Origin: a virus
Reading direction: 5' to 3' (one strand)
Length of the DNA: 23,274 nucleotides
Virus record (IMG/VR): IMGVR_UViG_3300035171_000026
Location: 1 to 23,274 of that record
Both the position numbers and the translations under genes were made by a program. A model generated the notes under the pieces. That model worked only from the letters and a program-made list of their open reading frames with translations. It searched no databases and was not told the origin of the DNA. Shown here piece by piece: positions 5,294 through 20,163 of this stretch. The number at the start of each line of letters is the position of its first letter. The first letter of the stretch is position 1.

Positions 5294-5326
5294 ATTTATG
5301 ATTTACGATTACCGATTTATGATTTA
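5294..5326. repeat. Heptamer tandem repeat ATTTAYG between tape measure and hub genes
   Basis: On the plus strand it reads ATTTATG, ATTTACG, ATTACCG, ATTTATG and then ATTTA, i.e. 4.7 heptamer copies. The tape-measure stop codon (TAA, 5324-5326) lies inside the tract, and the hub ATG follows it. The same heptamer occurs at 7679-7692 and, in the opposite orientation, at 9531-9562. Confidence 0.9.
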
Positions 5327-7666
5327 GCCGCTCGTGCGGTTGCGACCATTCGCACCTTGCTGCGCCAGTTGCTTCAATTCCGCCGCCATGCGTTTTTGTT
5401 CGGCGGCGACGGCATCCAGTCCTTGCTGGTTTTTTTGGTGCAGTGCGAGATTCGCGGCGTGATATTCGCCCGAGGAGGCCTGCAATGGCGCGAGGTTCAA
5501 TGATGCCGCCGTCGGCGCGGCCGCTGGTGGCGTGGCGGGATGGTTTTTCCGCCAGTCAGCTTCATCAAACGGTTTGGTGGCGGGATGGTTTTTCCGCCAC
5601 TCCTCCAGATTGAATGGCTGCTCAGGCAAGAAAGGCTTTGCCACCTTCACCTGCTTCGGCGCCACCACTGGAATCTCACCAGTCTTCGCCACCTTCGCCG
5701 CCGGCGGCGGCGTCACCGGGATCTCGCCCGGCGTTTCAACTTTCACCGCCGCCGGTTTCTCCACCGCGATTTTTTGTGGAGCTTCAATTTCCACCTTCGG
5801 CGTCGCCACCTTCACCGCCGGCACCGGTTCCACTGGAATCTCACCAGTCTTCGCCACCTTCGCCGCCGGCGGCGGCGTCACCGGGATCTCGCCCGGCGTT
5901 TCAACTTTCGCTGCCGCCGGTTTCTCCACCGCGATTTTCTCCGGCGCAGCCACCTCCGCCTTCGGCGTCGCTGGTGAAACTGGCGCGGCTGGTGCCGGGA
6001 CAGTTTTTATCGAAGCCAGTAAACTACTGATGAAGAAATTAGCCGCCGCTGCCAGTTGCGGTTCCGGCAATGCCGGGGCATCCGGTTTATTTATCTTCGT
6101 CGCCAGTTGGATGGTGGCTTCCCATTGCGCTTTAAGTCCGGCCACCAATTCGGGCAAGGCGGAGCTGTCGGCAGCCTTGGCCTCTTTGACCGCCGCAATC
6201 AAGGCCCGCGTGGTGGACTGTGATTCTGCCAGTCCGGTTTTGGTTTCCTCGGGCGTAGCGTGGCCGTCAATTATTTTCTGTTCAACTGTTTTGGTTTTTC
6301 CGAGGCCCTTTTCCAGCGTGGCGGCGAGGTCGAAAAATACTTCATCCTGCTTGGTCTTGACCGTGGCGTTTTCGGTGGGGCGATTAACCTTGAGGGCGCT
6401 GGTTAGCGCTGTGATTTCGCCGGACAACTTTGCTTGCGCGCCGGTAGTTTCGTCCGCTTTTTTGACCGCCGCCTCCATCGCGATTTTCAACGCGTTGAAA
6501 TCCGGGTCAGATTTTACATCCGCCTCATACTGCGCACGACCAGCCCGGAGGTTGTTTAGTTCAACCGTGGCCTGTTGTGCATGATCCAGCGCGAACTTCA
6601 CCTTGTCGGGCAAGGTGGCCATCAGATTTTTGATTTCACCCTCCAGCGTGACCTTTATTTCCGGTGTGAGCGCCCCGCCGCCGAAGATGGAAGGTGCGCG
6701 GCCCTTGTCAATGTAATCTCTCTGGAGCGCCTGGGCGTTGCGATAATTCGCATCCTTTTCCGCCGTAGCATTGGCATCATCAATGATTTTCTGCGCGGCC
6801 TTTTGCGCGGCGGCAATTTTATCAGCATCCCCAAAATCTTTGGCCGTCTTTTCGCGCTGCCCCTTTTCCGCCGTGTAGGTATCAGTCAACGCTTTTGCGT
6901 TCGCCTGGTCGCCGGGCACATCCAGTTTTTCCAGCGACCGTGTTTTGGTGACGACTTCCTGATCTTCAGCATTCTGTTTGGCCTTGGTGCCATCGGCGAT
7001 GGATTTGCGTTTAGCATCGGCGATGGCGACCTCGCCGGCCTCCGGCGTGATTTTTCCACGGGCGACCTGTGCCCGGATACGCGCCTGCGCCAGGGCTTCC
7101 TCGGCGGTCGCTTGCGCTGTCCGCGCTTCATTGATGGATTTTTGCAGGGCGAGCTGCGCGGTCAGTTCGGCGGTGACATTGTGTTCACCGCCGGCGATGT
7201 CGTCCAAGTGCGCGGCGTATTCCTGCGCGGCGGCGGCGGCTTCCCGCAAAATTTCCTGTTTAGCATGGATGCCTTCCAGAAAAGCCGGCTCGGCGGCTTT
7301 CTCCGCCATGTCGTCCAGCTCTTTATTAACCTCCTTGATGTGCTCCTTCATCAGCACAAACAAGCCGATGGCGGCGGCGACAGTGCCGGCGACCGGGTGC
7401 ATGGCCACGCGGAGCGCTTCGCCCAGCAACGGACTGATGCGCGTGACCTCGTGGATGACCCGGTGCATCTCACGGCCTTGGCCATGGAATAGCTGGATTT
7501 TTTCGGCGGCGTGCTCTGACTCTTTGCCCAATCCTTCCGTGGCTTTGGCCGCTTCCGTGGTGGTATGGCCAGTCTGCGCCAGCTCGGCGTTCGCGGCCTG
7601 GACATCTTCCTTGCCGGTCACGCCCATGTCGATGAGCAGCTTTAAGATTTTATCGGCATCGGGCAT
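5324..7666 (-). CDS. Tail tape measure protein
   Basis: 780 aa, the longest tail protein, located upstream of the hub-like gene as expected. Most of residues 20-560 is Ala/Lys/Glu/Gln-rich helix with coiled-coil character. Residues about 91-106 form a hydrophobic segment (VAGTVAAAIGLFVLM) of the kind tape measures use to insert into the host membrane. Residues about 565-735 are an unusual Pro/Val/Ala/Lys-rich tandem-repeat region, with units such as KVETPGEIPVTPPPAAK, followed by two WRKNHPAT units. Tape measure length sets tail length; at about 0.15 nm per residue this predicts a tail near 115-120 nm, less if the Pro-rich part does not count. The start ATG at 7666 has no clear Shine-Dalgarno site. 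Confidence 0.8.
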   Translation of the reverse strand: MPDADKILKLLIDMGVTGKEDVQAANAELAQTGHTTTEAAKATEGLGKESEHAAEKIQLFHGQGREMHRVIHEVTRISPLLGEALRVAMHPVAGTVAAAIGLFVLMKEHIKEVNKELDDMAEKAAEPAFLEGIHAKQEILREAAAAAQEYAAHLDDIAGGEHNVTAELTAQLALQKSINEARTAQATAEEALAQARIRAQVARGKITPEAGEVAIADAKRKSIADGTKAKQNAEDQEVVTKTRSLEKLDVPGDQANAKALTDTYTAEKGQREKTAKDFGDADKIAAAQKAAQKIIDDANATAEKDANYRNAQALQRDYIDKGRAPSIFGGGALTPEIKVTLEGEIKNLMATLPDKVKFALDHAQQATVELNNLRAGRAQYEADVKSDPDFNALKIAMEAAVKKADETTGAQAKLSGEITALTSALKVNRPTENATVKTKQDEVFFDLAATLEKGLGKTKTVEQKIIDGHATPEETKTGLAESQSTTRALIAAVKEAKAADSSALPELVAGLKAQWEATIQLATKINKPDAPALPEPQLAAAANFFISSLLASIKTVPAPAAPVSPATPKAEVAAPEKIAVEKPAAAKVETPGEIPVTPPPAAKVAKTGEIPVEPVPAVKVATPKVEIEAPQKIAVEKPAAVKVETPGEIPVTPPPAAKVAKTGEIPVVAPKQVKVAKPFLPEQPFNLEEWRKNHPATKPFDEADWRKNHPATPPAAAPTAASLNLAPLQASSGEYHAANLALHQKNQQGLDAVAAEQKRMAAELKQLAQQGANGRNRTSG
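5532..5599. repeat. Direct repeat of 23 bp in tape measure gene
   Basis: An identical 23-bp sequence occurs at 5532-5554 and 5577-5599, a 45-bp (15-codon) period. It encodes the two WRKNHPAT units near residues 689-711 of the tape measure protein. Confidence 0.9.
5665..5941. repeat. 165-bp period repeat in tape measure gene
   Basis: The segment 5665-5776 recurs at 5830-5941 (offset 165 bp, 55 codons) with only a few mismatches. It encodes the repeated VETPGEIPVTPPPAAKVAKTG region. The period is a multiple of three, so copy number can change without breaking the frame. Confidence 0.85.
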
Positions 7667-14716: not shown

Positions 14717-15925
14717 TCAGCCGTTCGCGATGGTGAGCTGGCGGATGCCGCCCGCATAGGTGATCACGATCTTCTCGTAGAACTCGACCGTGACGGCCAC
14801 GAGCTTCGTGCTGATCTGCTGGACATACACGCGGAACAAGCCGCCGCCCTGCTCGCCGTCGAAGTTCGAGACGAAGCGTTTGATGTTGGACGGATCTTCC
14901 GTGTCCACGTTGTCCTGGGCGTAGAAGGAATAAACCTTTGAGCCGAGGATTTCCGATTTGGCGGACGCGCCGGACTGGTAGCGTTCGCGGGAGACATAGA
15001 CCTTGTCCACGCCGAGCGCCGCCGCCAGCGCGGCTTCAGGATTCGTCCCGTAGCCGAGGTAGCCGGCGGGATTGTTCTGCGCGCCGTAAGCCTGCTGGCG
15101 ATACAGCGCCGCCGTGTCGCCGAACGCGATCCGGTTGTTGCGGATGCCGGTGATGTTCGTCTGCGTGACGAGATCAGCGGCGATGTCCATGTCCGGGTTG
15201 ACGGGGATCACACCGGGATTCACCGGCTGCGCCGCCCACACCAGGTTGTTGTTCACGGCGGCGGCCGCGATGGCCGCGAGCGCGCGGCGATAGCTGTTGC
15301 GATACAGCCGGCGCGTGAGCTTAGCCACGGCGTTCTGCTGCCAGCCCGGCACCTGGCCGGCCCCGACGCCGGTGTTCGCGACGTTGTCCAGGTCAACGAT
15401 CAACGTGAGACCACGGTTGAGCGTTTTGTCCGTCACGTCCGTGCCGGTGTATTTCACGGCCTTGAAGTCGGCCCCTATCGCGCGCTGGTCGTCCACAAGT
15501 TCGGACATGAACTCCTCGGCGTTGTTCGCCGCCTTCCACTCGAACCGGCGGCCGACCGGAACGGCGGGGGCGAAGAACTGAAGCGTGGCTTCAATGTCAT
15601 TCGGATCACGCCAGCCGGTGGTGAAGTTCGTCAGCGGCTCGCTGTAATACGTTTCGAGGAACTGCGAATCGTTGGCGAAGATCGCCGCGAGACGCGGGTT
15701 CGTGTTCATGAAGCCGGACAGGCGTTCATCGTAGTTGCTGGGGTGGTAGGAGCCTTCGTTGGCGAAGAACACCTGGCCGGCCCGGTAGCCCTGGCCGCGA
15801 TCCGCACCCACGATGGGATGCTGGCTGTCGCGTTCGTTGGCGAACTGCGGCAAGGTGACCTTGCCGAACGTGGGCAGCGCGCCGGCCATCGCCAGGGCTG
15901 CCGTTAATTTGAGGTTCTTTTTCAT
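14717..15925 (-). CDS. Major capsid protein
   Basis: 402 aa, ATG at 15925. It lies downstream of protease/scaffold and decoration genes. Residues from about 100 onward have the look of an HK97-fold capsid subunit: LTLIVDLDNV, a long Ala-rich helix (RRALAAIAAAAVNNNL) and a C-terminal beta section (VAVTVEFYEKIVITY). The N-terminus is unusual: a hydrophobic leader (MKKNLKLTAALAMAGALPTF), then FANE at 28-31, FANE at 54-57 and FAND at 83-86. All three lie before the main fold, which suits a propeptide removed at maturation. The reading frame remains open upstream to 16168, but that part overlaps the decoration gene and the ATG at 15925 has a proper leader, so I use 15925. Confidence 0.8.
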   Translation of the reverse strand: MKKNLKLTAALAMAGALPTFGKVTLPQFANERDSQHPIVGADRGQGYRAGQVFFANEGSYHPSNYDERLSGFMNTNPRLAAIFANDSQFLETYYSEPLTNFTTGWRDPNDIEATLQFFAPAVPVGRRFEWKAANNAEEFMSELVDDQRAIGADFKAVKYTGTDVTDKTLNRGLTLIVDLDNVANTGVGAGQVPGWQQNAVAKLTRRLYRNSYRRALAAIAAAAVNNNLVWAAQPVNPGVIPVNPDMDIAADLVTQTNITGIRNNRIAFGDTAALYRQQAYGAQNNPAGYLGYGTNPEAALAAALGVDKVYVSRERYQSGASAKSEILGSKVYSFYAQDNVDTEDPSNIKRFVSNFDGEQGGGLFRVYVQQISTKLVAVTVEFYEKIVITYAGGIRQLTIANG

Positions 15926-15943
15926 TTTAATTTTCAGTTGATG

Positions 15944-15952
15944 TTTTGGTTG
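15944..15952 (-). promoter_or_regulatory. CAACCAAAA leader element before the major capsid gene
   Basis: Exact CAACCAAAA on the minus strand, 18 nt before the ATG at 15925. The remaining leader is A/C/T-rich (TGAAAATTAAA next to the ATG) with no Shine-Dalgarno site. Confidence 0.55.
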
Positions 15953-15960
15953 AGGGTTGA

Positions 15961-16605
15961 TCAGAACGAGACCTTGCTCGGCACGTCGTGCACGAAGGTG
16001 ATCGCGTCGCCGGCCGCCGAGCTGGTGTCGGTGCCGAAGAGCGCCTTGCCGAAGATGCCCGCGTCGCCGGTCGTGGCCTTGGTGGCCTGGCCCGCTGCGC
16101 CGGCTTTCATGTAGTCGCCGTTGGCGATGGTGCCGTCCGTCTGCACCCGCAACATGCCGGGCTTGCAACCGAACAACTGGATGGCGATCGGCATCGCCGC
16201 TTCCGCCTGGTCGTTCGAGACGCCGATGGCGACATCATTCAACCCGGCGATCGCGACGTGGTCGGCGTCCGTCCCGATCTTGTAGATCAGGTAACGGCCG
16301 CTGGTCGCAGCGTCGGCGACGTAGGTTTTGACGCCGCCTTCAAACGTGCCTTCCCCGATGTTGGCGAACATCACGCGGCCTTGCGGCGCGCGGGTGAAGC
16401 CCATCGCGTGGAAGATCCGTTCGAGCAGCAGCGGGGCGAGCCAGACCTTGCGCATGTGACGGCGGAAGAATTTCCGGTTCGCGTTGCCGATGACCGGACG
16501 ACGCGGAGATTGATTGGCCTTTTGGATGTTTGCGACCGCCAAGGCGAACATGGCGACCACAACCGCGACGAGCGCGACAACGAGTAACAGTGCGTTCAGT
16601 TTCAT
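15961..16605 (-). CDS. Capsid decoration-like protein (DUF2190 type) with hydrophobic N-terminal extension
   Basis: 214 aa. Residues about 90-214 match the DUF2190 decoration pattern: SGRYLIYKIG, NDVAIGVSNDQA, RVQTDGTIANGDYMKAG, TKATTGDAGIFGKALFG and a closing ITFVHDV strand. These proteins trimerise on the capsid surface. Residues 1-27 are strongly hydrophobic (LLLVVALVAVVVAMFALAVA) and look like a membrane anchor or uncleaved signal peptide. Residues 35-65 are basic. FAN at 80-82 marks the border between this extension and the decoration domain, followed by IGEG. Family members usually lack such an extension. An anchor removed at the FAN site would release the mature domain; this is inference. 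Confidence 0.65.
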   Translation of the reverse strand: MKLNALLLVVALVAVVVAMFALAVANIQKANQSPRRPVIGNANRKFFRRHMRKVWLAPLLLERIFHAMGFTRAPQGRVMFANIGEGTFEGGVKTYVADAATSGRYLIYKIGTDADHVAIAGLNDVAIGVSNDQAEAAMPIAIQLFGCKPGMLRVQTDGTIANGDYMKAGAAGQATKATTGDAGIFGKALFGTDTSSAAGDAITFVHDVPSKVSF

Positions 16606-16629
16606 TTTCGTATTTTCGTTTGTTGTTTG

Positions 16630-16638
16630 TTTTGGTTG
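16630..16638 (-). promoter_or_regulatory. CAACCAAAA leader element before the decoration gene
   Basis: Exact CAACCAAAA on the minus strand, 24 nt before the ATG at 16605 and directly after the 16645-16664 hairpin. The spacer is a CAAACAA-type unstructured stretch without a Shine-Dalgarno site. Confidence 0.55.
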
Positions 16639-16644
16639 TGCCCG

Positions 16645-16664
16645 GCTGCGCCGTGAGGCGCAGC
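16645..16664 (-). terminator. 8-bp stem-loop between the 93-aa gene and the decoration gene
   Basis: The arms 16645-16652 and 16657-16664 are perfect reverse complements with a 4-nt loop (TCAC on the minus strand). It is placed 10 nt after the stop of the 93-aa gene and just before the CAACCAAAA leader. No T-run follows, so attenuation or RNA processing is as likely as termination. Confidence 0.5.
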
Positions 16665-16674
16665 ATGGCGGTGA

Positions 16675-16956
16675 TTATTTTTTCTTGGCCGGCTTCGACT
16701 TGTTGCCGTGTTCTTCCTGGTGCTGGATCGCGATGAGCGCCTGCACGCGGTTCAGCGCCCCGCCGGACTCGGAGATTTTCCGGGCGATGGCCGATTCCAG
16801 TTTTTGCACGTTGGTCTCCGGCGGGGTCTCCTTCAATTGCTCAACGCGCTCTTTGAGTTCGCCGATCTGGTCCAGATGGGCATGGATCGCGGTTTCAATT
16901 TCTTCGATCGAGGCGTCGGGTTTCAGGCCGAGCCGTTTCAATAATGCTTCGTTCAT
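16675..16956 (-). CDS. Small coiled-coil, Lys-tailed head-region protein
   Basis: 93 aa, ATG at 16956. The protein is almost entirely helical, with heptad-like segments (IEEIETAIHAHLDQIGELKE, RVEQLKETP, NVQKLESAIARKISES), and ends in a basic tail (KSKPAKKK). It lies between the protease/scaffold and decoration genes. Its size, charge and coiled coil would suit a scaffold accessory or head assembly factor, but I do not recognise a family. It carries no FAN motif, unlike its neighbours. The leader is A/C-rich (CAACCTGAACC) without a Shine-Dalgarno site. Confidence 0.6.
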   Translation of the reverse strand: MNEALLKRLGLKPDASIEEIETAIHAHLDQIGELKERVEQLKETPPETNVQKLESAIARKISESGGALNRVQALIAIQHQEEHGNKSKPAKKK

Positions 16957-16993
16957 GATTTTAATAATGGTTCAGGTTGCGGTTGGTAACGGT

Positions 16994-17701
16994 TCAGCCT
17001 TTCTTCGGCATCTTGATCTCCACCGACTTCATCCCCTCGAACAGCGCGGGGTGGCGGCGCTGCGCCTCGTTGTAGATCGCGGTGTGGTGCGTCTTGCGGC
17101 TCAACTTCAATTCCTTGGCCACGGCGTCCATCACCTCGTTGGCGAAGGTCGCGCGGTTCGTCGGATCGGAGATGTCCACCTGTTCGGTGCGGCCGCCGCG
17201 CTGGAGCGAGATGGACGTGGTTTTCACTTTCGGCGCGAGCGCCCGGAGCGCGGTGCGCTCGTTGGCAAACTGCGCCGCGACTTTCAAGCGGCCTTCCCAG
17301 GTGGTCTGCTCGGCGGCGGTGATGCGGCCGGTGGTCAGCGCCAGCGCCAGCTCGTCGCCGATGCGCGCGGTGCGCTCGTTGGCGAACATTGTCAGCGCGT
17401 CCGTCAGGTCGGTGTTCAGCTTCGTGACCTTCTCTTCGATCTGCGTGACGGTCGCCGCGACGTCGGTGATCTCCGCCTCGTTGGCGAACTGGATCTTCAC
17501 CGCCGCGCACAGGCCGAGCAGTTTTTTCTTGAGGCCCGTCGTGGCGGTTTCCCACGCGGTGCGTTCATTCGCGAAGGTCGCGACTTTGGTTTCCATCTCG
17601 GTGATGGCCGTTTCCATTTCCGCTTCGGTCGGTTCAGCGGCGTTGGCGAACTGCGGTTTCATTGCGAGCGCTGCGAAGAGCGCGATTAGCTTTTTCTTCA
17701 T
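16994..17701 (-). CDS. Nested scaffold protein from an internal start of the protease gene
   Basis: An in-frame ATG at 17701 lies inside the protease gene. It is preceded by an exact CAACCAAAA element 7 nt upstream, the same signal and spacing that precede the independent starts at 11352 and 10332. Translation from here gives a 235-aa protein with a hydrophobic N-terminus (MKKKLIALFAALAM, then PQFAN), close in pattern to the capsid N-terminus (AALAM...PQFAN). The rest is Ala/Glu/Thr-rich helix with six FAN motifs at intervals of 25, 29, 34, 39 and 41 residues. Nested scaffold starts are known in Mu (I/Z) and lambda (C/Nu3). That this start is used is inference. Confidence 0.6.
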   Translation of the reverse strand: MKKKLIALFAALAMKPQFANAAEPTEAEMETAITEMETKVATFANERTAWETATTGLKKKLLGLCAAVKIQFANEAEITDVAATVTQIEEKVTKLNTDLTDALTMFANERTARIGDELALALTTGRITAAEQTTWEGRLKVAAQFANERTALRALAPKVKTTSISLQRGGRTEQVDISDPTNRATFANEVMDAVAKELKLSRKTHHTAIYNEAQRRHPALFEGMKSVEIKMPKKG

Positions 17702-18337
17702 TGTATTATTTTGGTTGTGGTTTTTGTTGGCTGCCTCGGCGGGAGCTTCGGCGAGAGTGTCGTCGGAATTAAAAAAGTGGACCGGTAGATGCGGATGGTT
17801 CGTCAGGCCGGCGCTGAAAATCTTGGTGGGGCGGAAGACCGGCACGCCGTTGAGATCGCCGCAGGGTTCGCTCTCGCCGAGATCGCCGCTGAACGCCTTC
17901 AGCCGTTTCGCCGGGTCAGCGTTCTCCACGAGGTCGCTGCCTTCGTTGGTGAACACCGGCATCCCGTATAGGCCGTCCGCGCGCACTTCCAGTTCGGCGA
18001 ACACGCCCTTCGGCTCCTTGTCCGGATAAAATTTTCCAAGGCCGGGGACGTGCGGGTGCCCGACGTAGATGTTGCAGCCCTTCAGGAATTTTCGGAACCC
18101 GCGCCGGTCATTGTGGAAGCCGGCGACCATCGCCTCCGCGCCCGCCTTATCAATGCGCTGGATGGCTGGTTGCTTTTTCATCCCGCCTTTGCCGTCCGGG
18201 AACAGGGCCGGCGAGGGATGATCTCCGAACGGCGCGATCATGGCCCAGCCGTCCGCGCCGATGCTGATCTCATTACAGAAGCCGACCAGCGCCACTTCCG
18301 TGGACTCGTTGGCGAACATGACGAACTTGGTTTTCAT
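16994..18337 (-). CDS. Prohead protease fused to scaffold (Mu I-like)
   Basis: 447 aa, ATG at 18337 overlapping the portal stop (ATGA). Residues 1-190 are protease: KGCNIYVGHPHVPG with a candidate catalytic His at 94, LKAFSGDLGE, and FSAGLTNHPHLP with a candidate Ser at 175. The latter matches the aLTNxP signature of Mu I-type (PF10123-like) proteases. Residues 190-212 are a linker encoded by a leader-like DNA sequence. Residues 213-447 are a helical scaffold with FANA at 230 and FANE at 255, 284, 318, 357 and 398. FANE also lies at 8-11, and FTNE at 129-132. The protease would cut the scaffold, and possibly itself and other head proteins, at these sites. Which residues are catalytic is a prediction. 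Confidence 0.7.
   Translation of the reverse strand: MKTKFVMFANESTEVALVGFCNEISIGADGWAMIAPFGDHPSPALFPDGKGGMKKQPAIQRIDKAGAEAMVAGFHNDRRGFRKFLKGCNIYVGHPHVPGLGKFYPDKEPKGVFAELEVRADGLYGMPVFTNEGSDLVENADPAKRLKAFSGDLGESEPCGDLNGVPVFRPTKIFSAGLTNHPHLPVHFFNSDDTLAEAPAEAANKNHNQNNTMKKKLIALFAALAMKPQFANAAEPTEAEMETAITEMETKVATFANERTAWETATTGLKKKLLGLCAAVKIQFANEAEITDVAATVTQIEEKVTKLNTDLTDALTMFANERTARIGDELALALTTGRITAAEQTTWEGRLKVAAQFANERTALRALAPKVKTTSISLQRGGRTEQVDISDPTNRATFANEVMDAVAKELKLSRKTHHTAIYNEAQRRHPALFEGMKSVEIKMPKKG
17709..17717 (-). promoter_or_regulatory. CAACCAAAA element inside the protease coding sequence
   Basis: Exact CAACCAAAA on the minus strand, 7 nt before the internal ATG at 17701. Being inside the protease frame it is translated as part of the Asn-rich linker (ANKNHNQNN). 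It is the main sequence evidence for a separate scaffold start. Confidence 0.55.
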
Positions 18338-20163
18338 GATTTGGTTTTTTCCGCAATCCCGTTGGCGAGATTCGCCGCGAGGATTTTGTAGATGGCGTTG
18401 GCCACGGCCGGATCGTGGTCGAGATTCTTTTTCAGCGCCGCCAGGTCATCGAGGATTGTGGCGAGCTTTTGCTTCTGCATGGCCGCGTCGTCGATCTGCG
18501 CGACGGCCGCGAGCCGTTCGTTGATGGATTGGAAATCCGCCAGCACGGCCTCGACGAGCAACGCCTGGCTGTTTTCGTTGAGGGTGGACGTGTTGGAAAA
18601 TTCCGGGTTCTTGTCCGTTTCGCCCGGCGGAACTTCCTTGCCTGGCGTAGTGGCCGGCGCAGTGACTTCCACCACGTCTTCATCTGGCTTGGGCAGCGGG
18701 CGCGAGTAGCGTTCCATCATCGTCTGCAAGCCGAGCAGGCCGCGACCATCCTTGTCGGTCAGCGTGGAGAGGAACGTGTCCACCGCGAGATCGTCCTGGA
18801 TGTTGCGGCGGGGCGTCGTGCGCAGTTTGATATAGGCGAGCGCCGGGGCGTCCGGGCCAAATTTCCAAGCGAGGGCGTATTTAGTCACCTTGCTTTCGAG
18901 CGTCTCCTCCAGATTCTTCGCATCGTCGGTTTCCAGAATTTCCGATTCATCTTCCTGAAGACTTGCGCCAGTGCCGTGCGCGCTGCTCGTGGTGCCGAGG
19001 TCAGCCCCGCGCCAGAGCTGCGTGATGGCCCGGTCGAAGATGGCGAGAAAATCCTTGAAGCCGGCCTCGCCGTTGGCCTTGGCCTCGACGAGCGTCAGGT
19101 CGGCGTTGCGGTTGGTGACCGCGCTCCATTCCTGCGCGAAGTCCTGGACGGCGGAAACAAAATCATTCCACTCGGGTGAATCCTTGGCCGCATCCGTTTT
19201 GCCGTGGATGCCCGGCATCCCGAACTTGTCCAGGAACGCGAGGGCGGACTTCAGCACCAGCGACTTCATCAGATGGACGACGCTGCACGCCTCCATGATG
19301 CCGTCGCCGCAGGTGACCATCCATTCACCCGGCAACATCTCGTTGCCGTAGATCTGAAACTCGCTGGGCAGGAACCGCAGCTTCCCGCGCGTGCCTTCAA
19401 ACCACCAGATGGGGCAGAAGATGAATTTCGCAGTGAGCGTGCCGTCTGGCAGCGGCTGCCAGATGATTTCGTGGATGGCGTAGTATTTGCCGACCGCATC
19501 CATCATCTGCCGAACCAGCAGCGAGAAGCCGCCCTCTTCATCCGGGTTGAGCGCGGTGGTCGCGCTGGCGTTGCCGTAAAACTGGTTGAGAAAATCTTTC
19601 TGCGCCTGCGCGAGCGGCTGCTGGCTTTCCTGCACGTCGTCACGGATCAGGATGTCGTAACCGTGCCGGGCGACACTCTTCAACCGCTTGGGCCGGCAAA
19701 TCTGCAACTGATAGTCGCGGCGCTCCATCGTGTCCCAGGCCATGCCCGCGCCCCGGAAGAAACCAAGCCGCCACTGGTCGAGATGATTGACGAGCTTCTC
19801 AAACGTCAAACCCTTGATCGGATTGTTACGCATCCTCACCGAGGTCGTGACCCGGCCGGGTGTGATGCTGGCATCCGGCTCCTCAGTATATTGGCCGGGC
19901 CGGTTCCGGGGTTTGCGGAAATAATCTGACTGGTCGGGCGATGCCTTGCCGGCCTGGCTGGTGGCCGGGCGCTGGGCACCCCCCCGCGATTCCTTGGAAG
20001 AGTTGCCAAGCTTGGGGTTGGTCGGCAGCTCATTGGAGACCACGTTGGCGAACCGGCGTTGCTCTCTCGGCGAGAGCTTCTGGAAGCCGGCCACCACCCG
20101 CGCCAACTTCGGCTCAAGTTGTCCACCGGCCAGACGGGAACCCTTTTGAGCGGTTTTAGCCAT
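18334..20163 (-). CDS. Portal protein (DUF935 / Mu gp29-like)
   Basis: 609 aa. Start ATG at 20163 with a clear GGAGG 5 nt upstream; the frame remains open further upstream, but no other start has such a site. Residues about 100-500 fit DUF935 portals: MRNNPIKGLTFEKLVNHLDQ, AWDTMERRDYQLQICRPKR, GKYYAIHEIIWQPLPDG, DLTLVEAKANG and ITQLWRGADLGTTSS. The portal forms the dodecameric ring through which the terminase pumps DNA. Residues 1-100 are a basic, low-complexity extension that includes RRFANVV at 36-42, a FAN site without the following Glu. Residues about 500-609 are a helical C-terminal tail. The stop overlaps the protease start by ATGA. Confidence 0.8.
   Translation of the reverse strand: MAKTAQKGSRLAGGQLEPKLARVVAGFQKLSPREQRRFANVVSNELPTNPKLGNSSKESRGGAQRPATSQAGKASPDQSDYFRKPRNRPGQYTEEPDASITPGRVTTSVRMRNNPIKGLTFEKLVNHLDQWRLGFFRGAGMAWDTMERRDYQLQICRPKRLKSVARHGYDILIRDDVQESQQPLAQAQKDFLNQFYGNASATTALNPDEEGGFSLLVRQMMDAVGKYYAIHEIIWQPLPDGTLTAKFIFCPIWWFEGTRGKLRFLPSEFQIYGNEMLPGEWMVTCGDGIMEACSVVHLMKSLVLKSALAFLDKFGMPGIHGKTDAAKDSPEWNDFVSAVQDFAQEWSAVTNRNADLTLVEAKANGEAGFKDFLAIFDRAITQLWRGADLGTTSSAHGTGASLQEDESEILETDDAKNLEETLESKVTKYALAWKFGPDAPALAYIKLRTTPRRNIQDDLAVDTFLSTLTDKDGRGLLGLQTMMERYSRPLPKPDEDVVEVTAPATTPGKEVPPGETDKNPEFSNTSTLNENSQALLVEAVLADFQSINERLAAVAQIDDAAMQKQKLATILDDLAALKKNLDHDPAVANAIYKILAANLANGIAEKTKS

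Follow-up and report, generated by a model that had tools for sequence, protein, structure and literature searches.

Why does one three-residue word, FAN, recur throughout the head proteins of an uncultured phage? The window, that is, the whole 23-kb viral record analysed here, carries its head module on the minus strand, in the order large terminase, Mu-type portal, protease/scaffold, small coiled-coil protein, decoration protein and HK97-fold capsid (Table 1). The phage has a Mu-type head and relatives in Verrucomicrobia, and the same gene order is found in IMG/VR records and in metagenome-assembled genomes named Verrucomicrobia subdivision 3, Pedosphaera, Spartobacteria and Kiritimatiellaeota. 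The relatives were retrieved by a contig search with a capsid alignment as query; a single protease sequence retrieved none from genome contigs, and no capsid relatives were found among 50,697 phage records. A preliminary description proposed that FAN is the site recognised by this phage's prohead protease. This reading is very probably right: head-only enrichment, placement before folded domains, conservation relative to the flanks and changes common to capsid, decoration protein and scaffold all argue for it.

Table 1. Head proteins of the window and the predicted sites and domains within them (positions in the window).
Feature	Position	Strand	Remarks
Portal protein, PF06074	18334..20163	-	Pfam match 150 bits vs 23.9 cut-off (Portal_Mu)
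FAN 38, portal N-terminal tail	20044..20052	-	
FSN 522, portal C-terminal tail	18592..18600	-	FAN in L001, L002
Protease/scaffold fusion, 447 aa, relative of Mu gpI/gpZ	16994..18337	-	Fold ~28-189 predicted, helical scaffold ~209-447
FAN 8-10, protease N-terminal propeptide	18308..18316	-	
FCN 20-22, N-terminal edge of protease fold	18272..18280	-	Asn invariant, 35 relatives
Predicted protease domain (residues 28-189), invariant H94 and S150	17771..18256	-	AF2 confident here
FFN 188-190, protease/scaffold junction	17768..17776	-	Asn invariant, 35 relatives
Likely separate scaffold product, internal ATG (M213, MKKKL...)	16994..17701	-	Predicted; like Mu Z inside I
FAN 230, scaffold	17642..17650	-	
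FAN 255 (TTC GCG AAT), scaffold	17567..17575	-	Predicted mid-helix
FAN 284, scaffold	17480..17488	-	Predicted loop
FAN 318, scaffold	17378..17386	-	Predicted mid-helix
FAN 357, scaffold	17261..17269	-	
FAN 398, scaffold	17138..17146	-	
Decoration (cement) protein, 214 aa	15961..16605	-	phrog_673; relative L061 matches PF09956
Strongly hydrophobic helix, decoration propeptide, 5' of FAN80	16534..16590	-	
FAN 80, directly before decoration fold	16360..16368	-	
Major capsid protein, HK97 fold, 402 aa	14717..15925	-	Residues 1-106 mostly low confidence
FAN 28, capsid propeptide	15836..15844	-	
FAN 54, capsid propeptide	15758..15766	-	
FAN 83, last site before capsid fold (FANDSQF)	15671..15679	-	

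The positions first listed for the word are all correct: residues 8, 230, 255, 284, 318, 357 and 398 of the protease/scaffold (with FTNE at 129), 28, 54 and 83 of the capsid, 80 of the decoration protein and 38 of the portal. These four head proteins contain 12 copies of FAN, their most over-represented tripeptide, where shuffling predicts 0.58 and none of 2000 shuffles reaches 12; for FAN[ED], 9 are observed and 0.06 expected from shuffles. The other genes of the window have no excess (FAN, 2 vs 1.22 expected; FAN[ED], 0 vs 0.09). Across 37 related contigs, a generalised form of the word is enriched 17.6-fold in the protease/scaffold (180 vs 10.2 expected), 8.8-fold in the decoration protein (29 vs 3.3), 6-fold in the capsid (57 vs 9.5) and 3.8-fold in the portal (33 vs 8.7), and 1.1-fold in the 503 other, non-head ORFs (79 vs 71.8). 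A helical and repetitive scaffold half invites an explanation by chance, composition or coiled-coil repetition, but the shuffle controls, the lack of excess in the 503 other ORFs and the conservation in divergent relatives contradict it and leave it practically no probability.

Selection on the protein had been deduced from varying codons. Within the window the codons hardly vary, as 10 of the 12 FAN copies are encoded by an identical TTCGCCAAC; the deduction still holds because the relatives encode FAN by 11 different 9-mers, with a codon use near background apart from a mild preference for GCC. A signal at the DNA level, suggested by the 10 copies of TTCGCCAAC, all on the coding strand, is ruled out by the same diversity of 9-mers.

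Which enzyme would read such a word? The protease/scaffold protein lies between the Mu-type portal and the capsid, with the scaffold as its C-terminal half, as in the architecture of PF10123 (Mu I protease). The window protein gives weak profile matches and no Pfam match, and its homologues L017 (60.7 bits), L026, L054 and L061 pass the PF10123 cut-off of 25.2 bits. In the AF2 model, pLDDT falls below 50 on either side of the protease fold, at residues 1-27 and 192-210. The best Foldseek matches of the fold among solved structures are T4 gp21, followed by HCMV protease, both weak (E 0.04-0.4). H94 and S150 are invariant among 35 proteases and are candidates for the catalytic His and Ser of an assemblin-type protease. 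A further invariant residue, S175, is found 25 residues past S150. In HCMV protease, His157 is located 25 residues past Ser132. The third catalytic residue of SPN3US gp245, D178, has the same distance from S153 (PMC5694885), and the catalytic set of the window protease may differ. A Met is present in the relatives at the place equivalent to M213, after an Asn-rich linker, and Mu Z is annotated as an internal start within I.

In the mechanism proposed here, FAN (LAN, IAN, AAN or FCN in relatives) would be the P3-P2-P1 word of a prohead protease formed by the N-terminal half of the protease/scaffold protein. Inside the prohead, the protease would release itself at FCN22 and FFN190 and cut the scaffold at six FAN sites, giving fragments small enough to exit. 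The disordered N-terminal arm of the capsid would be removed, with the last cut between FAN85 and D, as would the decoration arm, between FAN82 and I, and the portal tails. That the proteins are cut, and by this protease, we infer from their sequences.

FCN20 and FFN188, both missing from the first list, flank the predicted protease fold. In the FAN clade, conservation is 90% in the scaffold FAN triplets (matched by 2 of 20000 random sets) and 58% elsewhere in the scaffold; LAN-clade scaffolds have just 2-3 clear sites. FTNE129, counted as a site at first, is probably none: it closes a strand in the protease fold, and close relatives invariably read FTNEG there. An LTN-P stretch was also rejected as a site, since it too belongs to the protease fold. 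FAN255 and FAN318 are predicted to lie in the middle of long helices, which speaks against simple cutting; a dynamic scaffold would remove this difficulty.

All three capsid copies are located in the N-terminal arm, for most of which, up to residue 106, AlphaFold predicts no structure with confidence. Just before the fold, [F/L/I/A]-[A/C/S/V/H]-N is present in every full-length capsid and decoration relative examined, and its Asn is found in 35/35 of both proteins (the decoration ORF of L045 was read from a later start and left out of this scoring). Between FAN54 and FAN83, the capsid arm (15668-15766, minus strand) has an extra segment of ~29 residues that L009, L016 and L010 lack; it looks like the insertion of a unit that brought a site with it. 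The scaffold, from Met213 (17699-17701), and the capsid (15923-15925), both on the minus strand, have similar starts, MKK followed by a hydrophobic, Ala-rich stretch leading to P-Q-FAN; this may be a helix that both use in co-assembly.

Concerted switches of the word are expected where a single enzyme reads every site. FAN is the variant close to the window, a large clade has LAN, and L055 has AAN, AHN or ACN; FCN is common to capsid and decoration protein in L007, L033 and L034. The P3 letter is identical in capsid and decoration protein in 83% of 35 genomes, vs a best agreement of 74% and a mean of 19% in control column pairs (n=1296); discordant genomes are L051, L027, L039 and L054. In a portal and capsid tree, L057, with F in all three proteins, is nevertheless placed among LAN relatives, and L055, with A in capsid, decoration protein and scaffold, stands apart from its like. 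These two changes and the FCN of L007, L033 and L034 look like independent concerted switches. Because the word changed together in capsid, decoration protein and scaffold of some relatives, it looks like a recognition code that evolves together with the enzyme.

The decoration protein of the window matches only phrog_673, and its homologue L061 passes PF09956 (Phage_cement_2). In 29 of 36 relatives its propeptide has a helix of membrane grade, mostly with basic residues after it. The helix and basic residues precede FAN80, and the predicted FAN cut would remove them, which suggests a membrane-tethered precursor. In JBD30, a related Mu-like phage, the decoration protein binds to the outside of the head, and not before expansion (PMC11445458), out of reach of an internal protease; a possible alternative is that the precursor is cut earlier, at a membrane. 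Could a host enzyme, such as signal peptidase, process all these proteins? The decoration helix ahead of the site would fit, and the N-termini of scaffold, capsid and decoration protein resemble export signals (for example MKKKLIALFAALAMKPQFANA before AEP). However, such a helix is found in just 1 of 39 capsid propeptides, most scaffold sites are not preceded by a hydrophobic helix, and the word changes together in three phage proteins, so that processing by the host is very improbable.

In the portal, FSN522 adds a C-terminal copy to those first listed. The portals of L007 (8010-10370) and L033 (4059-6398) carry a C-terminal PBECR3 nuclease-like domain directly after FAN, and the L034 portal ends shortly past the same FAN, without this domain. 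Portal-PBECR fusions have already been described among polyvalent proteins (PMC5512222); the L007 and L033 portals share their architecture and differ in having FAN at the junction, which predicts release of the nuclease in the head. It might be argued that FAN is a docking word, itself uncut, that brings head proteins to the scaffold/protease much as the T4 capsid targeting sequence does. The proteins that share it must co-assemble, two scaffold copies lie within predicted helices, and a common binding partner would likewise produce concerted change. Cutting is better suited by the copy between portal and fused nuclease, by the placement exactly at fold edges and by the invariant Asn on either side of the protease domain, and docking keeps a slim chance.

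If FAN is a cleavage site, which bond is cut? Of the residues at the two pre-fold sites, in capsid and decoration protein, Asn alone shows no variation. It is followed by D, E or A in the capsid (Glu or Asp in 30/35), by I, V, N, S or G, and once L, in the decoration protein (no Glu in any relative), and mostly by E, A, S or D in the scaffold (Glu in 90/178). The proteases of T4, phiKZ, 201phi2-1 and SPN3US cut after Glu (PMC5694885, PMC10052503, PMC9026906), and so do all the mass-spectrometry-mapped T4/phiKZ-type enzymes named in PMC5694885. Together with the frequent acidic residue after Asn in capsid and scaffold, this precedent speaks for a cut one residue further on, after the Glu of FANE, as in the A-X-E words of SPN3US and phiKZ. 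The decoration residues and the Ala common after Asn in the scaffold speak against it, as does the Asn that never varies at the pre-fold sites, and this position is rather unlikely. The cut would thus probably fall after Asn (P1 = N). Glu at the scissile position of all sites, the rule in T4, phiKZ and SPN3US, is not what these proteins have. The preliminary link to the phiKZ S/A/G-X-E rule finds no support: it is possible for the capsid but not for the decoration protein, and the invariant residue is Asn, not Glu. A better fit seems to be a T4-like scheme in which P3 is hydrophobic, P2 is small and Asn replaces Glu at P1.

The T4 cleavage rule is (L/I)-X-E. T4-like enzymes act at short words of three residues, fragmenting the scaffold and trimming off N-terminal propeptides (PMC5694885, PMC10052503), as is proposed for the window, whose predicted protease fold is closest, if weakly, to gp21 and which would likewise use one short word with hydrophobic P3. 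Differently to T4, which cuts after Glu and encodes protease and scaffold in separate genes, the window clade has Asn as its invariant residue, and the window has a single Mu-like polypeptide. Like the words of phiKZ gp175 (S/A-X-E) and SPN3US gp245 (A-X-E), FAN is a short P3-P2-P1 word repeated in propeptides at redundant sites (PMC10052503); unlike these, with Glu at P1 and a small P3, the decoration sites of the window clade have no Glu and have Phe or Leu at P3. The locus shares with Mu gpI/gpZ the order portal-protease-decoration-capsid, a probable internal scaffold start, relatives matching PF10123 and repeated words, but in Mu the start of T is confirmed by sequencing. The SuMu and JBD30 papers give no mapped cut sites.

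Repeated words also occur in the scaffolds of classical Mu-type phages (protease/scaffolds L063, L068, L069, L073, L074, L075 and L076 were compared): LSA in Mu (6 copies), FAE in B3 (5), ALN in B23 (5) and martha (3) and [LFMV]AS in PeaS-P1 (6). Further words of this kind are [AS]LQ in RC1 and ALT in D3112. FAN thus seems to be a single dialect among several in a broader pattern. This generalisation is only suggestive, because the words of the other phages were chosen by eye before testing and an automatic search for repeated tripeptides is significant for some classical scaffolds (Mu, martha) and not for those of POA1180, MMP7 and Rctr16k. Unlike Mu, B3, martha and B23, in whose capsid proteins the scaffold words were searched and not found, the window clade has its word in capsid, decoration protein and portal too. 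Since the words are present in classical scaffolds and not found in these capsids, the distribution suggests that the repeated word first served to dismantle the scaffold and that the window clade extended it to the shell proteins.

Taken together, it is possible, if somewhat short of probable, that each Mu-type protease/scaffold has a lineage-specific three-letter cleavage code in its scaffold (FAN, LAN, AAN, FAE, ALN or LSA) that drifts with the enzyme. In the clade with Verrucomicrobia relatives the code would also mark capsid, decoration protein and portal, its cleavage would free a decoration precursor anchored in the membrane and, in some of the relatives, a nuclease carried by the portal, and FAN would belong to the first known prohead protease with Asn at P1. 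Mapped prohead-protease cleavage words are few in the literature compared, and each has Glu at the cut. Where the word is legible in the sequence, the mature N-termini of uncultured phages can be predicted and packaged proteins found; a word that changes across several substrates offers a way to study joint specificity change in a viral protease and its substrates. The same approach may suit Mu itself.

Elsewhere in the window, a probable tape measure protein (5324-7666, minus strand) contains a long repeat region rich in Ala, Pro, Lys and Val, built of KVETPGEIPVTPPPAAKVAKTGEIPV units.
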